DNA of 33,588 nucleotides from Hyphomicrobiales bacterium (GTDB lineage Bacteria > Pseudomonadota > Alphaproteobacteria > Rhizobiales > Methyloligellaceae). Position 1 is the stretch's first letter. Every line of letters starts with the position of its first letter. The notes beneath the pieces were generated by a model that ran no database searches, was not told the origin of the DNA, and saw nothing but the letters and a program-made list of their open reading frames with translations. A program made the translations under genes and the position numbers. Below are positions 1-15,095 of this stretch, in pieces. Location: contig JAJFHO010000019.1 of the NCBI GenBank assembly GCA_021775575.1, positions 1 to 33,588 of the forward strand. Reading direction: 5' to 3'.

Positions 1-210
1 CCCGGCGGCGGCATGGGCGGACCAGGCGGCGGCATGGGAGGCAGTCCAGGCGATTGACCCGGAGGACCCGGGGGACCACGCCCGCAGGCCAAAGGAGCAG
101 GTCCAGGCGGCAAAGGCGGAGGCCCGGGCGGAGAGGGTCCCGGCGGCGTTGAGCCTTACTACTGCTGGCGCAATTGGCGGAACTGCTACTGCTGGCGGAA
201 CTGTTACTAA
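1..210 (+). pseudogene. Gly/Pro-rich (collagen-like) RiPP precursor-like ORF, truncated at window edge and interrupted by in-frame TGA at 55-57; C-terminus ...GGVEPYYCWRNWRNCYCWRNCY*
   Basis: Frame 1 translation: [68 protein letters not shown]. Gly-rich coding on both sides of the TGA in the same frame; no ATG/GTG/TTG between TGA and core. Not in the ORF track. Confidence 0.6.
154..210 (+). repeat. Core-encoding repeat copy 1 (57 nt), PYYCWRNWRNCYCWRNCY + stop
   Basis: Differs from 508-564 only by aat/aac, tgt/tgc and taa/tag. Confidence 0.9.
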
Positions 211-294
211 TCCTGGGATGGACACGGCAATGCCGTCGGAGCATTCCGCGCCAAACTGGCGAGCTGTGGCGGCAGTGTCCGTGTCCGGGATCTA

Positions 295-318
295 AACCGG
301 CAATTGCCGGTTGTTTTT
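295..318 (+). terminator. Putative Rho-independent terminator/attenuator
   Basis: Perfect stem AACCGGC-AATT-GCCGGTT (295-312) followed by G and TTTTT (314-318). Confidence 0.65.
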
Positions 319-357
319 AAGCGTTGTGTCCGTCGCTAACTTAGAAGGAGAGAAGTA

Positions 358-564
358 ATGGCAATACTGAGAAGCGTTGAAGGAAAATTCTACGAGGTTC
401 CCGATAAGGAGCTTTCCAAGCTCGAAGTCCCGGCCGAGAAGGTCAAGGACATTATCGGTGCGCAGGGCGCGCCCGGACCGCAGGCCGGTCCTTCTGAAGG
501 CGTCGACCCTTACTACTGCTGGCGCAACTGGCGGAACTGCTACTGCTGGCGGAACTGCTACTAG
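358..564 (+). CDS. RiPP precursor-like peptide (68 aa), leader + short GxP linker + WRN/Cys-rich core
   Basis: SD-like AAGGAGA (344-350) 7 nt upstream of ATG; MAILRSVEGKFYEVPDKELSKLEVPAEKVKDIIGAQGAPGPQAGPSEGVD-PYYCWRNWRNCYCWRNCY; core identical to copy 1; immediately upstream of an MNIO gene. Confidence 0.85.
   Translation: MAILRSVEGKFYEVPDKELSKLEVPAEKVKDIIGAQGAPGPQAGPSEGVDPYYCWRNWRNCYCWRNCY
508..564 (+). repeat. Core-encoding repeat copy 2 (57 nt)
   Basis: See 154-210; all coding differences synonymous. Confidence 0.9.
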
Positions 565-5974: not shown

Positions 5975-6253
5975 TCAGTAATTGCGCCAGTTGTTCCAGT
6001 TCTGCCAGTTGCCCCAAGCCATATTCTGGCCGCGCGCCGTCAATGCGCGGCCCTTGGGGCCGGCGGCCTTGACCGCCTCTTGCACATGCTGCAGCGACTT
6101 GGCGGCGGCAGCTCCGCGATCGCCGGAGGTCTGGGCAGTTGCGGCGGGCAGACTGACGGCAACGGTCAAACCGGCAACCCCGACCGCGCGGGAGACCGTG
6201 TGGCGCATATTTGCCACGAGGTCGTTGCTGCTGTTCCTCGAAGACATACTCAT
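5975..6253 (-). CDS. GrrA-like RiPP precursor: Sec-like N-terminus, C-terminal W-x-N repeats (WGN WQN WNN WRN Y)
   Basis: MSMSSRNSSNDLVANMRHTVSRAVGVAGLTVAVSLPAATAQTSGDRG...GQNMAWGNWQNWNNWRNY*. Start uncertain (ATG at 6253 or 6247; longest ORF starts at 6310). Confidence 0.75.
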   Translation of the reverse strand: MSMSSRNSSNDLVANMRHTVSRAVGVAGLTVAVSLPAATAQTSGDRGAAAAKSLQHVQEAVKAAGPKGRALTARGQNMAWGNWQNWNNWRNY

Positions 6254-6528
6254 TGCAATGATCCCGATATTCCTGTCGTACTGCTGTCGTACAATATACG
6301 AATTAAGCATCGAAAACCCGTCGCACAGCCGCGTTGCGCCATCCGTAACGCTGCCATAAATATAACTACTGGCCGTAGTATGGACAACCTAAAATCATGT
6401 CCCTAAACTTTACCATTGCGTGTGTGACCGCCATACAACAGCCTAAGAAATCAAAAAATTGCGTCGAAAATCGGGGCGAGGCAATAAAGTACGGTATTTC
6501 CGGCGAATTGTGTATTCGAGGCTGAGAA

Positions 6529-8079
6529 ATGGGTCTTATTGACGGATTCGAGTATGACATTTTCATCAGCTACGCCCATGACGACAATCTCGGCTATCTG
6601 GTCAACGATCCAGCCGAAGGATGGGTGCTCGACTTCGCCAAACGGCTGAAGCAGGACCTGTCGCGGCAACTCAAGAAGGAAATTGGGAAGGCCGGCCGGG
6701 ATCTGGAGATATTCTGGGACAAGGACAGCCTGCAGCAGGGCGAGCCGCTCGACTGGGAATTGAACGACCATGTCGAGAATTCGGCCATATTCTGCATCTT
6801 CATGTCACAAAACTATCTCGATTCCGCATGGTGCAAGCAGGAACTGGATTGGTTCTTGAAGACCATGGACACCAGAAAAGACCGGCTGATGCGCGAGCAT
6901 GCCGGGCGCTTGTGGCCGGTAATCGTCGTTGGCGTGGGTCCAACTGCGCAAGCGGACTGGCCGGATTCGCAAAATGTGCTGCAGCGCGCGGAGCCATTTG
7001 ATTTTTTCCACGCGAATGAGAAATCGGGCGATCCCCGATACGCCTATCCCTCGATCGTTATCAATCAGGATCGATGCTTTTACGATGAATTCACCAAGCT
7101 GGGCACGATGCTGTCGCGGCGGATCAAGAAGGCGCTGGAGAAAGAGTCTGCCGCGCCCGCCGAAAGCCAGGACAGCGCCGATGAGCCGCGCTCCGGCGAT
7201 ATCGTGCCTTATACCGGCGATGTGATCCTACTCGCGACCGATGACCTTGCGCAAAAAGCCAGGCGTCTCGAAGCCCAGTGCCATGAAGCCGGCATCGGCG
7301 CGGTGCGCGCCGAGCAGTTCTCGGCCGATGCCCTGGAGCCGGTGCTCAATTCCGCCAAGGCCGTCGTGGCGATGCTGGGCGTTTATCCCGGCGCCGACGA
7401 GGAGGACAAGGTGAAAGCGTTCCGGACCGCGCGCGACGTCGCGTCGGAGATGAAAATCCCCTTCCTGCCCTGGATGCAAAAAGGTCTGAAACCGGCCTTC
7501 ATTGACGATGACTTTGAAAACTACAAAAGCTTCGTGACCGAGATGCAGGCTTCGCTCGTCCCGGGCGAGATCGGCGATCTTGTCGACAGGCTCAAGAAGG
7601 AGACAGCCACAACCACCGATGAACCCGACGCGGCGCCGGTGGAGCGGCGGGTCAAGCTGTTTATCGATGCCGCCAAGATCGACATCGACATCGCCCAGCA
7701 GATTCAGGAGAAGCTGAGAAGCCACAGCATCTCGGCGCGGACCTACCTGCCTCAGGCCAACGCGGACCAGAAGGCCCATAATGAACAATGGAATAATCTC
7801 GTCGAGAAATGCGACGGCATTATTCTCGTATCCGGTCAGATCGACATTGACGCCATCGACGACAAGCTCGACCAGATTCTGCGGCTTTCCGCGAAACGCC
7901 GGGCGGTAAAGAAGGCGGAGATTTCGGTGGCCATCATCGACGCTCCGCCGCCATCGGGATTTTATGTCCAGGAGCCGGGTGTGCAGATCATCACGGCCGA
8001 CGACGAAATGGGTTTTTCGGGCATTGTCGAATTTATCAAGGGACTGCAGACGGAAGGTGGCTCGAACGCGGCCGCCTGA
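6529..8079 (+). CDS. TIR-domain protein (N-terminal TIR plus one or two further divergent TIR/Rossmann-like modules)
   Basis: YDIFISYAHDD; SQNYLDSAWCKQELDWF with candidate catalytic Glu105; later modules around GDVILLATDDLAQKARRLEAQ and VKLFIDAAKIDIDIAQQIQEKLRS. Confidence 0.85.
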   Translation: MGLIDGFEYDIFISYAHDDNLGYLVNDPAEGWVLDFAKRLKQDLSRQLKKEIGKAGRDLEIFWDKDSLQQGEPLDWELNDHVENSAIFCIFMSQNYLDSAWCKQELDWFLKTMDTRKDRLMREHAGRLWPVIVVGVGPTAQADWPDSQNVLQRAEPFDFFHANEKSGDPRYAYPSIVINQDRCFYDEFTKLGTMLSRRIKKALEKESAAPAESQDSADEPRSGDIVPYTGDVILLATDDLAQKARRLEAQCHEAGIGAVRAEQFSADALEPVLNSAKAVVAMLGVYPGADEEDKVKAFRTARDVASEMKIPFLPWMQKGLKPAFIDDDFENYKSFVTEMQASLVPGEIGDLVDRLKKETATTTDEPDAAPVERRVKLFIDAAKIDIDIAQQIQEKLRSHSISARTYLPQANADQKAHNEQWNNLVEKCDGIILVSGQIDIDAIDDKLDQILRLSAKRRAVKKAEISVAIIDAPPPSGFYVQEPGVQIITADDEMGFSGIVEFIKGLQTEGGSNAAA

Positions 8080-8110
8080 GCAGGTTGTCCGTCAATTGTG
8101 CGCATGAATC

Positions 8111-11100
8111 ATGGACACCGCTGAACAGGAGAAAACCGGTCCGGCCGTCGTTGCGGCGCGGCGGCGGCCCCAATTCCCCTACCCGGGGCTGCGCGCGTTC
8201 GAGGACAATGAAGCGCGGATTTTCTTTGGCCGCGACCGCCATATCGACGAGATTCTGGAACGATTGGCAACCTCGCATTTCGTTCCCGTGATCGGTCCGT
8301 CGGGTTGCGGAAAGTCATCCCTGATCCGAGCCGGCGTAAACCCCGCGCTTCGCGCCGGCCGCTACTATGACGCCGGGTCGCGCTGGCGCATTGCGACAAT
8401 GCGCCCGGAGAATTCTCCGATATGGAATCTGGCCAGCATATTGTGCGGGCTGACGCGCCAGGAAGACGAGCCTGAAGATTATGAGGCGATCAGCCGGGTG
8501 TCGACGATGCTGCTCGCGGACCCGGACGGTATCGAGGAATTCCGGCAGGAATCGAGCCTTGGCGACGACGAGAACGTCCTGCTCGTCGTCGATCAGTTCG
8601 AGGAGCTGTTTAATATCGAGAGCGACGCCGAGCGCGACGCCACCGAAGTGTTCATATCGATCATCCTGAATATCTTCGAAGAAAAATTCGACCGGATTCA
8701 CTGCATCATCACGATGCGAACCGACAATCTGGGCGACTGCGCCCGTTATCCGGGCCTTGCCGATGCGATCAACCAGACCCTCTATCTGACGCCCAATCTG
8801 ACCGAGGAGGAAATGCGTGAAGCGGTCGAGCTTCCCGCAATCCGGTTTGGCGGGACCTTCGAGGACGGTCTTATCGACCGCATACTTGAGGACATGACGC
8901 ATGAGGTCGACCAGCTGCCGCTGATGCAGCATGTCATGCAGCGGATCTGGACGACATTCGACGGCGCCGGCGACGCGCCGAGGGTTTTCACCCACGCGCT
9001 CTATGAAGCCTTCGGCTGCATCGCCGATACGGTGAACCTTCACGCCGCTGAACTGCTCGAGACGTTGAGGCCCGAGCAGAGCGTGTTCGTGCCGATCCTG
9101 TTCCGCCAGCTGACCGAACGCCGGCTCGGCGGCGCTTTTCAGGATGTGCGCAGGCCTACATTATTCAAGGATATCGCGCTTGTGGCCGATCTGAGCGCGG
9201 ATGCGGGGCAAGAGGCGCTACGATCCGTCGTCGATCATTTCCGCGCTCCCAACGCGCTTTTTCTGCGGCCGCAGATGACCGAACGCGCCGTCATCGATGA
9301 CGACACCAGCATCGATATCGTCCACGAATGCCTGATCCGCAAATGGGACAAACTGAAGGAATGGGTTGAGCAGGAGTCGAAATCGGTCCAGGACTTGCGC
9401 GATCTCGACAGCCAGTCCAAGCGCTTCCGCGCAAGGCGTTCCGATGCCGCGGCCACGCCGGACGACGCCGTGGCGGAATCAACCGATGAAAGCCAAAGTC
9501 ACTGGCTGCGCCGGATGTTCAGCGGCGGCAGGCGATATCTGGACAAGGAAGCGGCAGACGAGTTGCTGCGCTGGCGGCGGCGGGAGAAGCCGAATGCGGC
9601 CTGGGCCGGGCGCTACGGGATCGCTCAATCGCGCTTCGACCAGGCGATGGCGTTTCTCGACTCGAGCCACAAGAGGCACCAGCGCCGCAAATTTGCCACA
9701 TCCGGGGTCGTCGCGGTCACGGTCGTCGGCCTATTCTACTATATTTTGTCGAGCGTCCAGGAGCGCGCGGCTCTCGAACGCTCCCAGGTCTCGCTGATAT
9801 CCAGCGACCTGACCCACAGCGCGCGCCTGCTGTCGCCCGACATGACGAAGGGCAATCTGGAGCTATGGTCGAGCCAGTGGACGGGGTCCGATGTAAAGGC
9901 GTTCGAGAAAGACTATCCGCGCCTGAAACTCTGGCTCGATGCGCAGAAATCGATTCAGGAGGGCAACCTCAACCTGATGCTGGTCCCCGACAAGGGAAGC
10001 AGCACCGGGCCGATATTCCGGCCGGAAATAGCATCGGGCGAAATTCTCGGGCTCGATGCCCACCCCGACGGCAAGATCTGGGCGGTTCTCAGCCGCCGCC
10101 GCGTGCGGCTGGTCAGTGAAACCGGCGCGCCGATAAGGGACCGCGAGTGGACGTTTGCCGAAGGAACGGGCCAAGTGGACAGCCCCCGGGCGAACCGGCT
10201 TACCGGCGGCAATCACGTGGTGGCGTTTCATCCGGAAGGCAAATTCATTCATGTCATCAGCGACAGCCGCATTGTCAGGCGGATACCGGCCGGTGGCGGG
10301 AAGATGACAACCGTAAGGCTGCTTGAAGGCGCGATTGTCCGCAGCGCCCTGTCGCCGGACTGCGCGATGATGGCCGTCGTCAGACGGCTTTCGGGAGACG
10401 ATTCCGGAGCCTATGAGGTTGAAATTCTGGACCTTTTGCAGAACCGGCGGACGGGCGTCTTCCGCATCGGCGCGGGGCGTGGAAAACTAACCGCCATCTC
10501 CTACGATGCCGCAAGCAGCGGCCTGCTGGCCCTCGTTTTCAACGACACCCATGTAACACAGTGGCGCGTGCCGGAGGGCGATGGCGGGATGGCAAGCCCG
10601 GCCGTGGCCTTCACGTCGCCTGTCGAGGGCATCCACAAAATACAAATGTCGCGGGACGGCGCCTGGCTGGCAGCTGTCACCGACAGCATCGGTCATTTGT
10701 GGCACATGAGCGCCATCAAAACCGAGGGCAACGCGGACGAACCGCCCGTAATCGGGCCGACGCGGTCGCTGTTCGGCTACTCGCTGCCGATAAAATTGTT
10801 ACGATTCCTGGGTGGCGGCGAACTTCTCACGGTTCGTCAGAATGGCGAAACGCTGGTCTGGCGTTACGATGACGGTCTGTCGTTCCGCCGGCTGGTGAAC
10901 GAGCCGAGCGAACCGCTATACCAGACGGTGAGCCGGTCGGGCCGCCTCAGCTTCATCGACAAGAGCGGATCCTTCCTGCACCGCAATTTATGGCCTCCGC
11001 GCGATGACCGGTTCGAGATCAGGAAGCTTGCGGGGCTGGCGACCAAAATGAGCATAACCGAGGATGGCAGGATTATCGCGATCGGTTATGAGGATGGCTC

Positions 11101-12301
11101 GATCGAGCTCGTGACCCCCTATTTGCTGAAAGACAAGCAGCGTATCGGTTTCCGGTCCTTGCTGCCGACATCGCAAAGCCAGGGCGGTATCAAGCCCGCG
11201 GCCGCCGCCGGGGAATATCGCCGTGATCCAAGAGCAATCGGCCAGTTGGCCCTCTCCGGGAACGGCGCTACGGTCGTCGGCCTTCGCGATGACGGAACGC
11301 TCATTACCTCGACAAAAGGTGACGGGGACGCCGGCGCCTATATCACCGCGCAAACAGCGCCCCGGGCGTTGACCGGAGAGAAGGCCATTGCCCGCCTGGC
11401 GCTTTCTCCGGACGGCCGGCAGCTGGCAATATTGTCCGACATTGGCGAAGCCTCGGAGGCACAAGCAGCGGACATGGCCGCGCTGCGAGCGAGCCAACTG
11501 TCCTTTTATTCACGCGTCGGCGGCGCATGGGTCCCCTCGCCAAACCCGCCGAAGGTATCGACGGACTCGGCAATTTGCAGCATTGCCTATGGTTCGGGCG
11601 GGGACCATTTCGCAGCCGGCACAATCGGCGGCAATCTCTATGTCGCCAAAATCAAGAGCGGACGGGTGAGTAATTTCGGCAAGCCGCTCCAGTCTTTTCC
11701 GGGCAACTCGGTCGCCGCCATTCTGTTCGCCCGGCCGCAAAGCCAACTGCTGATCACGACGGTCCTGGCGGGGTTCAACGCGCCCAGCAAGTCCTGCCGC
11801 CATGCCGGCAGCCACCAGAATGCCGGAGATTCCCGATCGGTCGAGCAGCATGAGGTGGACAGAGATGTAAAAATTGCCGTTGCCAGGCTTGACGGCTCAC
11901 CGATACCCGCCGGCGTCAATCCGGGAAGCCTGCCCTCGCCGACGCTGCTGTTCCGTGGCATGTCCTTCCTGCCCGGGAGCGAAACATTACTGGTCACCGA
12001 TGTTGATCTTCTGGGCGAAAAGATAAAGGTCCGGTTTTTCGATCTGTTCCCCGCCGACGTCGCCAAAGTAGAAATTCAGGATACGTTCCGTGGCGAAATC
12101 GATCCGTCGAGATTCGTCGATCCGAAAATTCTGCGGCCCGACCGCAGAACCGCAACTGGCAAGCCCGACCTCTTCGCGGCCAAGATTGGCTGCCAGGATG
12201 ATCAGCAAACATGCTGGATGATCGTTCCGACAATATTGCGCAACCGGATGCTGGTTTTCGCCTACCGAAATCTGAAACGGGCGCTGCCCCCGGCGGATTA
12301 G
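8111..12301 (+). CDS. nSTAND1-like P-loop NTPase with predicted TM helix and C-terminal WD40/beta-propeller-like region
   Basis: FPYPGLRAFEDNEARIFFGRDRHIDEIL; Walker A GPSGCGKSSLI; Walker B VLLVVDQFEELF; TM SGVVAVTVVGLFYYILSS; repeated LALSPDGRQLAILS-type blades. Confidence 0.88.
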   Translation: MDTAEQEKTGPAVVAARRRPQFPYPGLRAFEDNEARIFFGRDRHIDEILERLATSHFVPVIGPSGCGKSSLIRAGVNPALRAGRYYDAGSRWRIATMRPENSPIWNLASILCGLTRQEDEPEDYEAISRVSTMLLADPDGIEEFRQESSLGDDENVLLVVDQFEELFNIESDAERDATEVFISIILNIFEEKFDRIHCIITMRTDNLGDCARYPGLADAINQTLYLTPNLTEEEMREAVELPAIRFGGTFEDGLIDRILEDMTHEVDQLPLMQHVMQRIWTTFDGAGDAPRVFTHALYEAFGCIADTVNLHAAELLETLRPEQSVFVPILFRQLTERRLGGAFQDVRRPTLFKDIALVADLSADAGQEALRSVVDHFRAPNALFLRPQMTERAVIDDDTSIDIVHECLIRKWDKLKEWVEQESKSVQDLRDLDSQSKRFRARRSDAAATPDDAVAESTDESQSHWLRRMFSGGRRYLDKEAADELLRWRRREKPNAAWAGRYGIAQSRFDQAMAFLDSSHKRHQRRKFATSGVVAVTVVGLFYYILSSVQERAALERSQVSLISSDLTHSARLLSPDMTKGNLELWSSQWTGSDVKAFEKDYPRLKLWLDAQKSIQEGNLNLMLVPDKGSSTGPIFRPEIASGEILGLDAHPDGKIWAVLSRRRVRLVSETGAPIRDREWTFAEGTGQVDSPRANRLTGGNHVVAFHPEGKFIHVISDSRIVRRIPAGGGKMTTVRLLEGAIVRSALSPDCAMMAVVRRLSGDDSGAYEVEILDLLQNRRTGVFRIGAGRGKLTAISYDAASSGLLALVFNDTHVTQWRVPEGDGGMASPAVAFTSPVEGIHKIQMSRDGAWLAAVTDSIGHLWHMSAIKTEGNADEPPVIGPTRSLFGYSLPIKLLRFLGGGELLTVRQNGETLVWRYDDGLSFRRLVNEPSEPLYQTVSRSGRLSFIDKSGSFLHRNLWPPRDDRFEIRKLAGLATKMSITEDGRIIAIGYEDGSIELVTPYLLKDKQRIGFRSLLPTSQSQGGIKPAAAAGEYRRDPRAIGQLALSGNGATVVGLRDDGTLITSTKGDGDAGAYITAQTAPRALTGEKAIARLALSPDGRQLAILSDIGEASEAQAADMAALRASQLSFYSRVGGAWVPSPNPPKVSTDSAICSIAYGSGGDHFAAGTIGGNLYVAKIKSGRVSNFGKPLQSFPGNSVAAILFARPQSQLLITTVLAGFNAPSKSCRHAGSHQNAGDSRSVEQHEVDRDVKIAVARLDGSPIPAGVNPGSLPSPTLLFRGMSFLPGSETLLVTDVDLLGEKIKVRFFDLFPADVAKVEIQDTFRGEIDPSRFVDPKILRPDRRTATGKPDLFAAKIGCQDDQQTCWMIVPTILRNRMLVFAYRNLKRALPPAD

Positions 12302-12311
12302 GATCGGGACT

Positions 12312-12480
12312 CTTAACCAAAATATCACGGTTGCCGCGATCGCGATCGTGCTCATGAAGGCGTGGGCGCGGCGGTCTTATCGGGTGGCAATCCGCCGCCA
12401 GTCCTTGGGACGGCCGAACATGCGCTCGATGCGATTTCGCAGCTTATACGCCTGTGCTTTCGGCGCTCGAACCGCGCGCC
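12312..12480 (-). mobile_element. Degenerate IS5-family transposase C-terminal remnant
   Basis: Minus-strand translation LAHWRAVRAPKAQAYKLRNRIERMFGRPKDWRRIATR*DRRAHAFMSTIAIAATVIFWL; conserved Tyr codon replaced by TAA (12377-12379). Confidence 0.8.
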
Positions 12481-12640
12481 AGTGAGCCAGAAGTGGTAAT
12501 CTGCCACGGTGAACTCCCGTCAGTTGGGTGTTGGAAACACATCCGCGACGCCACGGGAATCCCTTTTTTGAGCCTGAACTTGGGGGTGATACGCATACGC
12601 TACATCCTGCGATCACTGCGAATAATTTGATGACGAGGAC

Positions 12641-13242: not shown

Positions 13243-13887
13243 TCAGCCGGCCAGCAGCAGCAGCTTGATCTGCACGCTGTCGGATTGCCCGCCCGGCGCT
13301 TCCTCGACGATCAGCCTGTCGCGCCGCCACACGATGCCCTCGCCCGGTTCAATAACGAGCTCCACGCGGCCTTCCGCCCGCTGTCCGGCCTTCATCCCGA
13401 TATGCGCCCTATGCGCGTGATCGTCGAGATTGAGCCAGGCGCAGCGGGTCCACGCGTCGGGTTCGTCCAATCCGGCCGATTTTGCGGCCGCCGCGCAAAT
13501 ATCCATCCCCGGTTCGCTCGCCGGCGGCGCGGCCGCCTGAAAAACCGCCTCGACGGGTTTTGCGAAACCCTCCTCGGCTAGCTGCAACAGCATGGTCAGC
13601 GCATCGAGCGCCTTCCAGTCCTCTTCGCCGCCGCAGCCCTGCGCCGCCGCTCCCGTCAGGACAGGAATCTCGGCAAGCCAGAGGCGCTCATGGAGATGGT
13701 TGGGAATAGAGAAATAGCGTATCGCCGGAGTGTCATGCTCCGTGTCGCCGCCCTGGTCCGCCGCCCCGGCGGTAAAGCCCTCGATATTCCGCAGCTTGTT
13801 CGCGATATCGCCGCCGTCCAGATAGAGTCGCGAGCCCTCGACCCGGAAGGCGCCGGCGCGCCCGGATATGGCGATCGCCGCGTTCAC
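13243..13887 (-). CDS. Uncharacterised protein translationally coupled to the radical SAM gene
   Basis: GTG start (13887-13885) overlaps the rSAM TGA (GTGA). C-terminus NLDDHAHRAHIGMKAGQRAEGRVELVIEPGEGIVWRRD. Confidence 0.7.
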   Translation of the reverse strand: MNAAIAISGRAGAFRVEGSRLYLDGGDIANKLRNIEGFTAGAADQGGDTEHDTPAIRYFSIPNHLHERLWLAEIPVLTGAAAQGCGGEEDWKALDALTMLLQLAEEGFAKPVEAVFQAAAPPASEPGMDICAAAAKSAGLDEPDAWTRCAWLNLDDHAHRAHIGMKAGQRAEGRVELVIEPGEGIVWRRDRLIVEEAPGGQSDSVQIKLLLLAG

Positions 13888-15095
13888 TGCGCCGGGTGCC
13901 GGGCCGGCTGATTGCCCCAGCGTTCCGCGTCGAGGTCCCGCTCGCAGGCCGCCAGCGCGACCTCTGTGAGGATCTGCACGGTATAGCGGCAAAACATCGT
14001 TTCAGTGGTTTCGAAGGAACCCGTCTCGAACAGCTTGTTGGCCGGCGCCCCGCCGCCGCAAACCGGGAAAAAGGCGCAAGCCTCGCGGCAGTTGCTCACG
14101 CCCTTCCCGATTGCGGCATTCATGGCGATGAAATTATCGGATCGAGCCATGTCCGCGATTTCGTCGTTCAGCACATTGCCGAATACAAAGTCGCCAAACT
14201 GCTTGTTCTCCATGCCGAGCAATTCCGGCGAGAAGGTGGAAAGATCGCCATTGGCGGCAACCGTTGTGATGGCAAAGGGGCGCGTCTGCTGATTGACCGG
14301 CTCGTCGCCGCCCTCTCTCAATATATTGCCGAAAGCCTGCGCGAAATCACGCACCGATCTGATCTCGTCGCTGTTCGTCGCCAGCTCCAGGAAACGCTCC
14401 ATGAAACCGCGGTAAAGGGCCTCGCAGCGCCGGTCGGCAAGCGACGATTCGCCATGCGCGCCCTCGAGCTCCTCCACATTGAAGCAGATGTCACGGGCGC
14501 CATGGACGCGGTAGAAATCGAACAGCTCGTCGGGAAAGAACAGCGCCTCGCGCGTCAGAACGCTGATGACGTGAAACCCGACATCCTTCTCCCTCAGCAA
14601 TTGCAGGCCCTTGACGGCGCTGTCCCAGGTCCCTTTTCCGGCGCGGGTGACACGATTGGCGTCATGCAGCCGCTTCGGCCCGTCGATACTCACGCCGACG
14701 GTCACGCCGGGCCGGGAAAACAGCTCGCACCAGGCATCGTCGATCAGCATGCCGTTGGTCTGAAAACAATGCGTGATGCGGGTCTCCGCGGGAAGGTGCT
14801 TTTCAGCCAGCGCGAATGCTTTTTCATAATAGGCGGGCGGCAGGACAAGCGGCTCGCCGGCATGCCAGACGAGCGAGATCTGGTCGCCGACGAGACCGGA
14901 GCTGGCGCATCGATCGAAGGTGGCCGCCATCACGTCTTCGCTCATCCGGCTGTTGTCGGAACGTGACGGCAGATAACAATATTTGCAGTCGATATTGCAG
15001 AAGGGAGTCGGCTGAAGAATCAGCAGCTCAATCGCCGGGTCACCGGGCGAATCGGCACCGGGGCACTCCTCGATACGCGTCTTTCGCGATGTCAT
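13884..15095 (-). CDS. Radical SAM/SPASM peptide-modifying enzyme, GrrM/FxsB-like
   Basis: CNIDCKYCY (CxxxCxxC), LVWHAGEPLV, CFQTNGMLID, VGVSIDGPKRLHDANR; C-terminal CREACAFFPVCGGGAPANKLFETGSFETTETMFC. Confidence 0.85.
   Translation of the reverse strand: MTSRKTRIEECPGADSPGDPAIELLILQPTPFCNIDCKYCYLPSRSDNSRMSEDVMAATFDRCASSGLVGDQISLVWHAGEPLVLPPAYYEKAFALAEKHLPAETRITHCFQTNGMLIDDAWCELFSRPGVTVGVSIDGPKRLHDANRVTRAGKGTWDSAVKGLQLLREKDVGFHVISVLTREALFFPDELFDFYRVHGARDICFNVEELEGAHGESSLADRRCEALYRGFMERFLELATNSDEIRSVRDFAQAFGNILREGGDEPVNQQTRPFAITTVAANGDLSTFSPELLGMENKQFGDFVFGNVLNDEIADMARSDNFIAMNAAIGKGVSNCREACAFFPVCGGGAPANKLFETGSFETTETMFCRYTVQILTEVALAACERDLDAERWGNQPARHPAQ

Follow-up and report, generated by a model that had tools for sequence, protein, structure and literature searches.

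In the 33,588-nucleotide stretch of a Hyphomicrobiales contig analyzed here (the window), the gene on the minus strand at 5975..6253 (P0001) probably encodes the precursor of a secreted triceptide, i.e., a three-residue cyclophane RiPP, of the GrrA/OscA functional type, matured by the radical SAM enzyme encoded at 13884-15095. The reading frame (coding 6253..5978, stop codon 5977-5975) translates into 92 aa, MSMSSRNSSNDLVANMRHTVSRAVGVAGLTVAVSLPAATAQTSGDRGAAAAKSLQHVQEAVKAAGPKGRALTARGQNMAWGNWQNWNNWRNY, without a single Cys and with a predicted core at the C-terminus, AWGNWQNWNNWRNY (5978..6019, minus strand), delimited from the sequence and from pattern statistics, in which WGN, WQN, WNN and WRN are contiguous. 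The segment at 6131..6253 (minus strand; MSMSS...LPAATAQ) is predicted to be signal-peptide-like on the basis of its hydropathy maximum, which falls in VGVAGLTVAVSLPAA (residues 24-38, mean Kyte-Doolittle value 1.85) with PAATAQ at its end, and the gene is flanked by those of a cyclase (end 5888) and a TIR protein (start 6529), both on the plus strand. The translation, the hydropathy and the coordinates therefore bear out the original prediction of four W-x-N triplets in a C-terminus devoid of Cys, of a Sec-like hydrophobic stretch ending in ATAQ, and of a placement between cyclase and TIR genes on the opposite strand. An alternative ATG upstream, at 6310, would give a protein of 111 aa, and the 92-aa start is favored only because the hydrophobic segment then sits like a signal peptide. 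The GC content of the frame by codon position (0.59/0.57/0.79) resembles that of genuine genes in the window (GC3 of 0.72-0.76), unlike which the overlapping plus-strand ORF has a GC3 of 0.56; a weak promoter-like site lies upstream of the peptide gene.

The pattern TGGNNNAAYTGGNNNAAY occurs five times in the window, three of them within the 92-aa peptide, against an expectation of 0.00 from 100 shuffles, and this peptide is the sole site in the 4.06-Mb assembly with at least three consecutive aromatic-x-Asn triplets, reversed controls giving none. Elsewhere in the genome, W-x-N-W-x-N is found in the two Cys-rich precursors of the window, in one on contig C254, and in three further matches on contigs C7, C50 and C161. 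No close homologue of the peptide emerged within its taxonomic family or among plasmids: the search of its own genus and family returned only weak matches (E of at least 0.002) lacking W-x-N-W-x-N, and that of plasmids returned none. When contigs of other genomes were scanned for the pattern, the counts are to be read as at least the values obtained, many of the listed matches being unrelated frames; in the order, three genomes besides the one studied here (G000) matched the triple W-x-N, with no GrrA-type precursor in the stretches fetched. Peptides of another sort were observed in Syntrophobacterales/Deltaproteobacteria MAGs (L032 and L110); they have no signal peptide, and their W-x-N runs terminate in FNWWT, WGNWGNWRNWRNWHNWGNWFNWWT of L032 being one example. 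A weak radical SAM match (28% to GrrM) lies nearby in L032.

The enzyme proposed as the maturase, encoded on the minus strand at 13884..15095, is of the cyclophane-forming radical SAM/SPASM type known as GrrM/OscB, reaching 405 bits with TIGR04261 (cut-off 310 bits), and is the only GrrM above the cut-off in the genome. It is 35-48% identical to the sampled GrrM homologues, and all seven Cys expected to ligate [4Fe-4S] clusters are intact, namely residues 33/37/40 of the CxxxCxxC motif and 336/340/346/369 of the SPASM domain, which are invariant among 17 homologues. Adjoining a tRNA-Ala gene, it is accompanied by a 214-aa ORF (13243..13887, minus strand) that begins at a GTG overlapping the stop codon of GrrM and is possibly a co-operonic companion; this ORF had no match in a Pfam search, a marginal one at locus L172 and none at L038. 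No precursor-like ORF with aromatic-x-Asn/Asp triplets was found beside the window GrrM. The presence in one genome of a single GrrM and a single such peptide, together with the enzyme's score above the family cut-off and the similar precursors beside GrrM at homologous loci, supports the pairing put forward in the original prediction. We infer this pairing, as well as the number and regiochemistry of the rings, export and any biological role. OscB crosslinks C7 of Trp to the beta-carbon of Asn or Asp at i/i+2 (PMC11002830, review). By analogy, the cytosolic GrrM/OscB-type enzyme would recognize the 92-aa precursor and couple a carbon of the Trp ring with the beta-carbon of Asn inside each W-x-N, yielding up to four Trp-Asn rings, at -2.016 Da apiece, before the ringed peptide is exported by Sec, its signal peptide removed and the rigid tail released. 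For AWGNWQNWNNWRNY, the calculated monoisotopic neutral mass would fall from 1907.824 to 1899.761 with four rings (-8.063 Da).

Triceptide precursors are expected to show repeated aromatic-x-Asn triplets at the C-terminus, an export-type N-terminal leader as at homologous loci, and adjacency to grrM; the peptide has four consecutive W-x-N and, judging by hydropathy, such a leader, but is separated from grrM by 7.6 kb, with TIR, nSTAND and GNAT genes of the opposite strand in between. At the GrrM loci sampled in other genomes, a precursor with a W/F-x-N-rich C-terminus adjoins the enzyme in 14 of 16, mostly within 150 bp, and usually combines a hydrophobic stretch at its N-terminus with a short spacer. 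The loci include those of Alphaproteobacteria MAGs (L043, L057, L040), a Roseobacter (L056), a Phaeobacter plasmid (L167), a myxobacterium (L038), Bacteroidota (L047, L094), and genomes of the order and class (L151-L155, L170-L175). The layout of the window peptide is that of the precursors at L043, L057, L040, L175 (together with L130, an unlinked paralogue), L167, L056 and L153. Several GrrM-adjacent precursors start their core with (R)LAWGNW or AQW, and the window peptide with MAWGNW; most have a spacer motif, [S/D/E]RL..[IVL]R, which the window peptide keeps loosely (AKSLQHVQEAV). As for the distance, genome G790 offers a precedent for a precursor unlinked to grrM: besides the precursor adjoining its single GrrM, it has a second one on a separate contig. 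Adjacency is usual, not obligatory.

Outside the core, the leader bears a weak likeness to those of GrrM-adjacent precursors. An HMM built from 14 leaders gave the window leader 3.0 bits, a score matched by 118 of 1997 shuffles and thus not significant. Against the L130 precursor, the whole peptide scored 117; one of 3000 blockwise shuffles that preserved the core reached this, and 43 of 3000 did when only the mature leader was shuffled, a figure uncorrected for several comparisons. Nor does the curated precursor model, NCBIfam TIGR04260, place the peptide in its family, since no match was returned at E<=10 (family threshold 31 bits). This model is narrow, however, for it also missed the GrrM-associated precursors of L130, L056 and L047 and gave the cyanobacterial precursor of L061 just 20.5 bits, below the cut-off. 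The resemblance to GrrA that had been claimed is supported by the tail and the layout, which match GrrM-adjacent precursors; the leader homology is weak, and the curated model gives no match. Compared with the GrrA/OscA and GrrM/OscB pair (TIGR04260, TIGR04261), the peptide has in common a signal-peptide-like N-terminus, a spacer, a C-terminal W-x-N run and a GrrM above the cut-off in the same genome; it differs in being unmatched by TIGR04260, in lying 7.6 kb from grrM instead of beside it, and in having a short core of four triplets with no Gly-rich repeats. It is, in our reading, a further example of a known peptide type, oddly placed.

The surroundings of the gene suggest other readings. 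A second W-R-N RiPP system was observed in the window (1-564 and 626-1858) and at L150 (620-2053), L164 and L166, and is conserved in three genomes; its members are a PapB-like radical SAM enzyme, an MNIO, a GAF protein, an S8 protease, a TauD dioxygenase and a cyclase. Its Cys-containing precursors in the window (358-564 and the first 210 bases) end in CWRNWRNCYCWRNCY, the corresponding core in relatives being YWGWWRNCWRNCWRNCY. Contig C254 starts with the second radical SAM gene (rSAM2, L150 860-2053) together with another precursor of this type and one rich in Gly (L150 1-430), which is cut off by the contig end within a (GGPGGGM) repeat. The window (1-211) opens with the same repeat, so that the Gly-rich precursor appears to be split and we take the two contigs to be probably adjacent. 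An in-frame TGA at 55-57 of the window may be a real stop codon or a sequence error near the contig end. Located within this cluster, just past the cyclase gene, and having W-R-N triplets in common with the precursors there, the 92-aa peptide could be a third substrate of rSAM2 and the MNIO rather than of GrrM. We consider this improbable, since the peptide has neither the MAIL(K/R)S..GKFY(D/E)VP leader nor Cys, and since rSAM2, whose best NCBIfam match is PapB, below the cut-off, reaches just 72 bits with the GrrM model. The equivalent clusters of genomes G066 and G169, both of the same order, encode an ABC protein, TauD, a cyclase, radical SAM (60-63% identity), MNIO (54%), GAF and S8 proteins and three to four Cys precursors with a GKFYEVP-type leader; GrrM, TIR/nSTAND homologues and any counterpart of the 92-aa peptide are absent from them, which indicates that peptide and GrrM behave as a separate unit. 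The Cys-W-R-N precursors (window 358-564, C254, G066 and G169) thus resemble the 92-aa peptide in their C-terminal W-R-N triplets and differ from it in a GKFYEVP-type leader that is no signal peptide, in the Cys of the core, and in going with a different radical SAM enzyme and no GrrM. Listed in the original prediction as a third, different precursor, the peptide does not share one system with the other two, which belong with the second radical SAM enzyme and the MNIO.

Between the peptide gene and grrM, the window encodes (6529-12301) a TIR protein with a weak FxsC_Nterm match (36 bits) and then an nSTAND1-WD40 protein, a conflict-type pair that is missing from the MNIO clusters of G066 and G169. 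In genome G143, of the same order (L170, 3097-10887), genes of a trypsin-like protein, presumably EAD1-like at its N-terminus, a 620-aa protein and an nSTAND1 protein immediately precede those of a GrrA-type precursor with FPN repeats and of GrrM. This is the only sampled locus with nSTAND1 near GrrM, making two cases with that of the window, and since the other sampled loci show none, we regard the linkage as a lead and not as a rule. That the peptide and GrrM work within the TIR/nSTAND conflict locus they bracket, for example as a secreted ring peptide sensed by STAND/TIR proteins or protecting against them, is a doubtful proposition. The peptide might also be a relic grrA that lost its place beside grrM when the TIR/nSTAND genes were inserted and is no longer matured or expressed, as the unusual 7.6-kb separation, the tRNA-Ala gene beside GrrM and a sequence between the nSTAND and GNAT genes (about 12377-12616; translation ending AYKLRNRIERMFGRPKDWRRIATR), which we take to resemble an IS transposase remnant, would allow; this is unlikely given an open frame with good codon bias, four perfect triplets, an intact GrrM and the promoter-like site, weak as it is. 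Least credible of all is that the ORF arose by chance or specifies a small secreted protein, rich in Trp and Asn, that stays unmodified: no homologue of high significance covers the peptide, and unrelated frames of other genomes also hold W-x-N runs, but the codon bias, the genome-wide uniqueness of the motif and the co-presence of the genome's only GrrM speak against it.

Taken as a GrrM substrate, the peptide widens the range of GrrM-type ring peptides: gene-neighborhood mining would overlook this precursor, because its gene lies away from that of the enzyme and the curated model does not detect it. Two W-x-N systems can be told apart in one stretch of DNA, one with GrrM and no Cys in its precursor, the other with rSAM2, an MNIO and Cys-containing precursors, and their occurrence in one organism makes the choice of substrate by two radical SAM enzymes directly testable.
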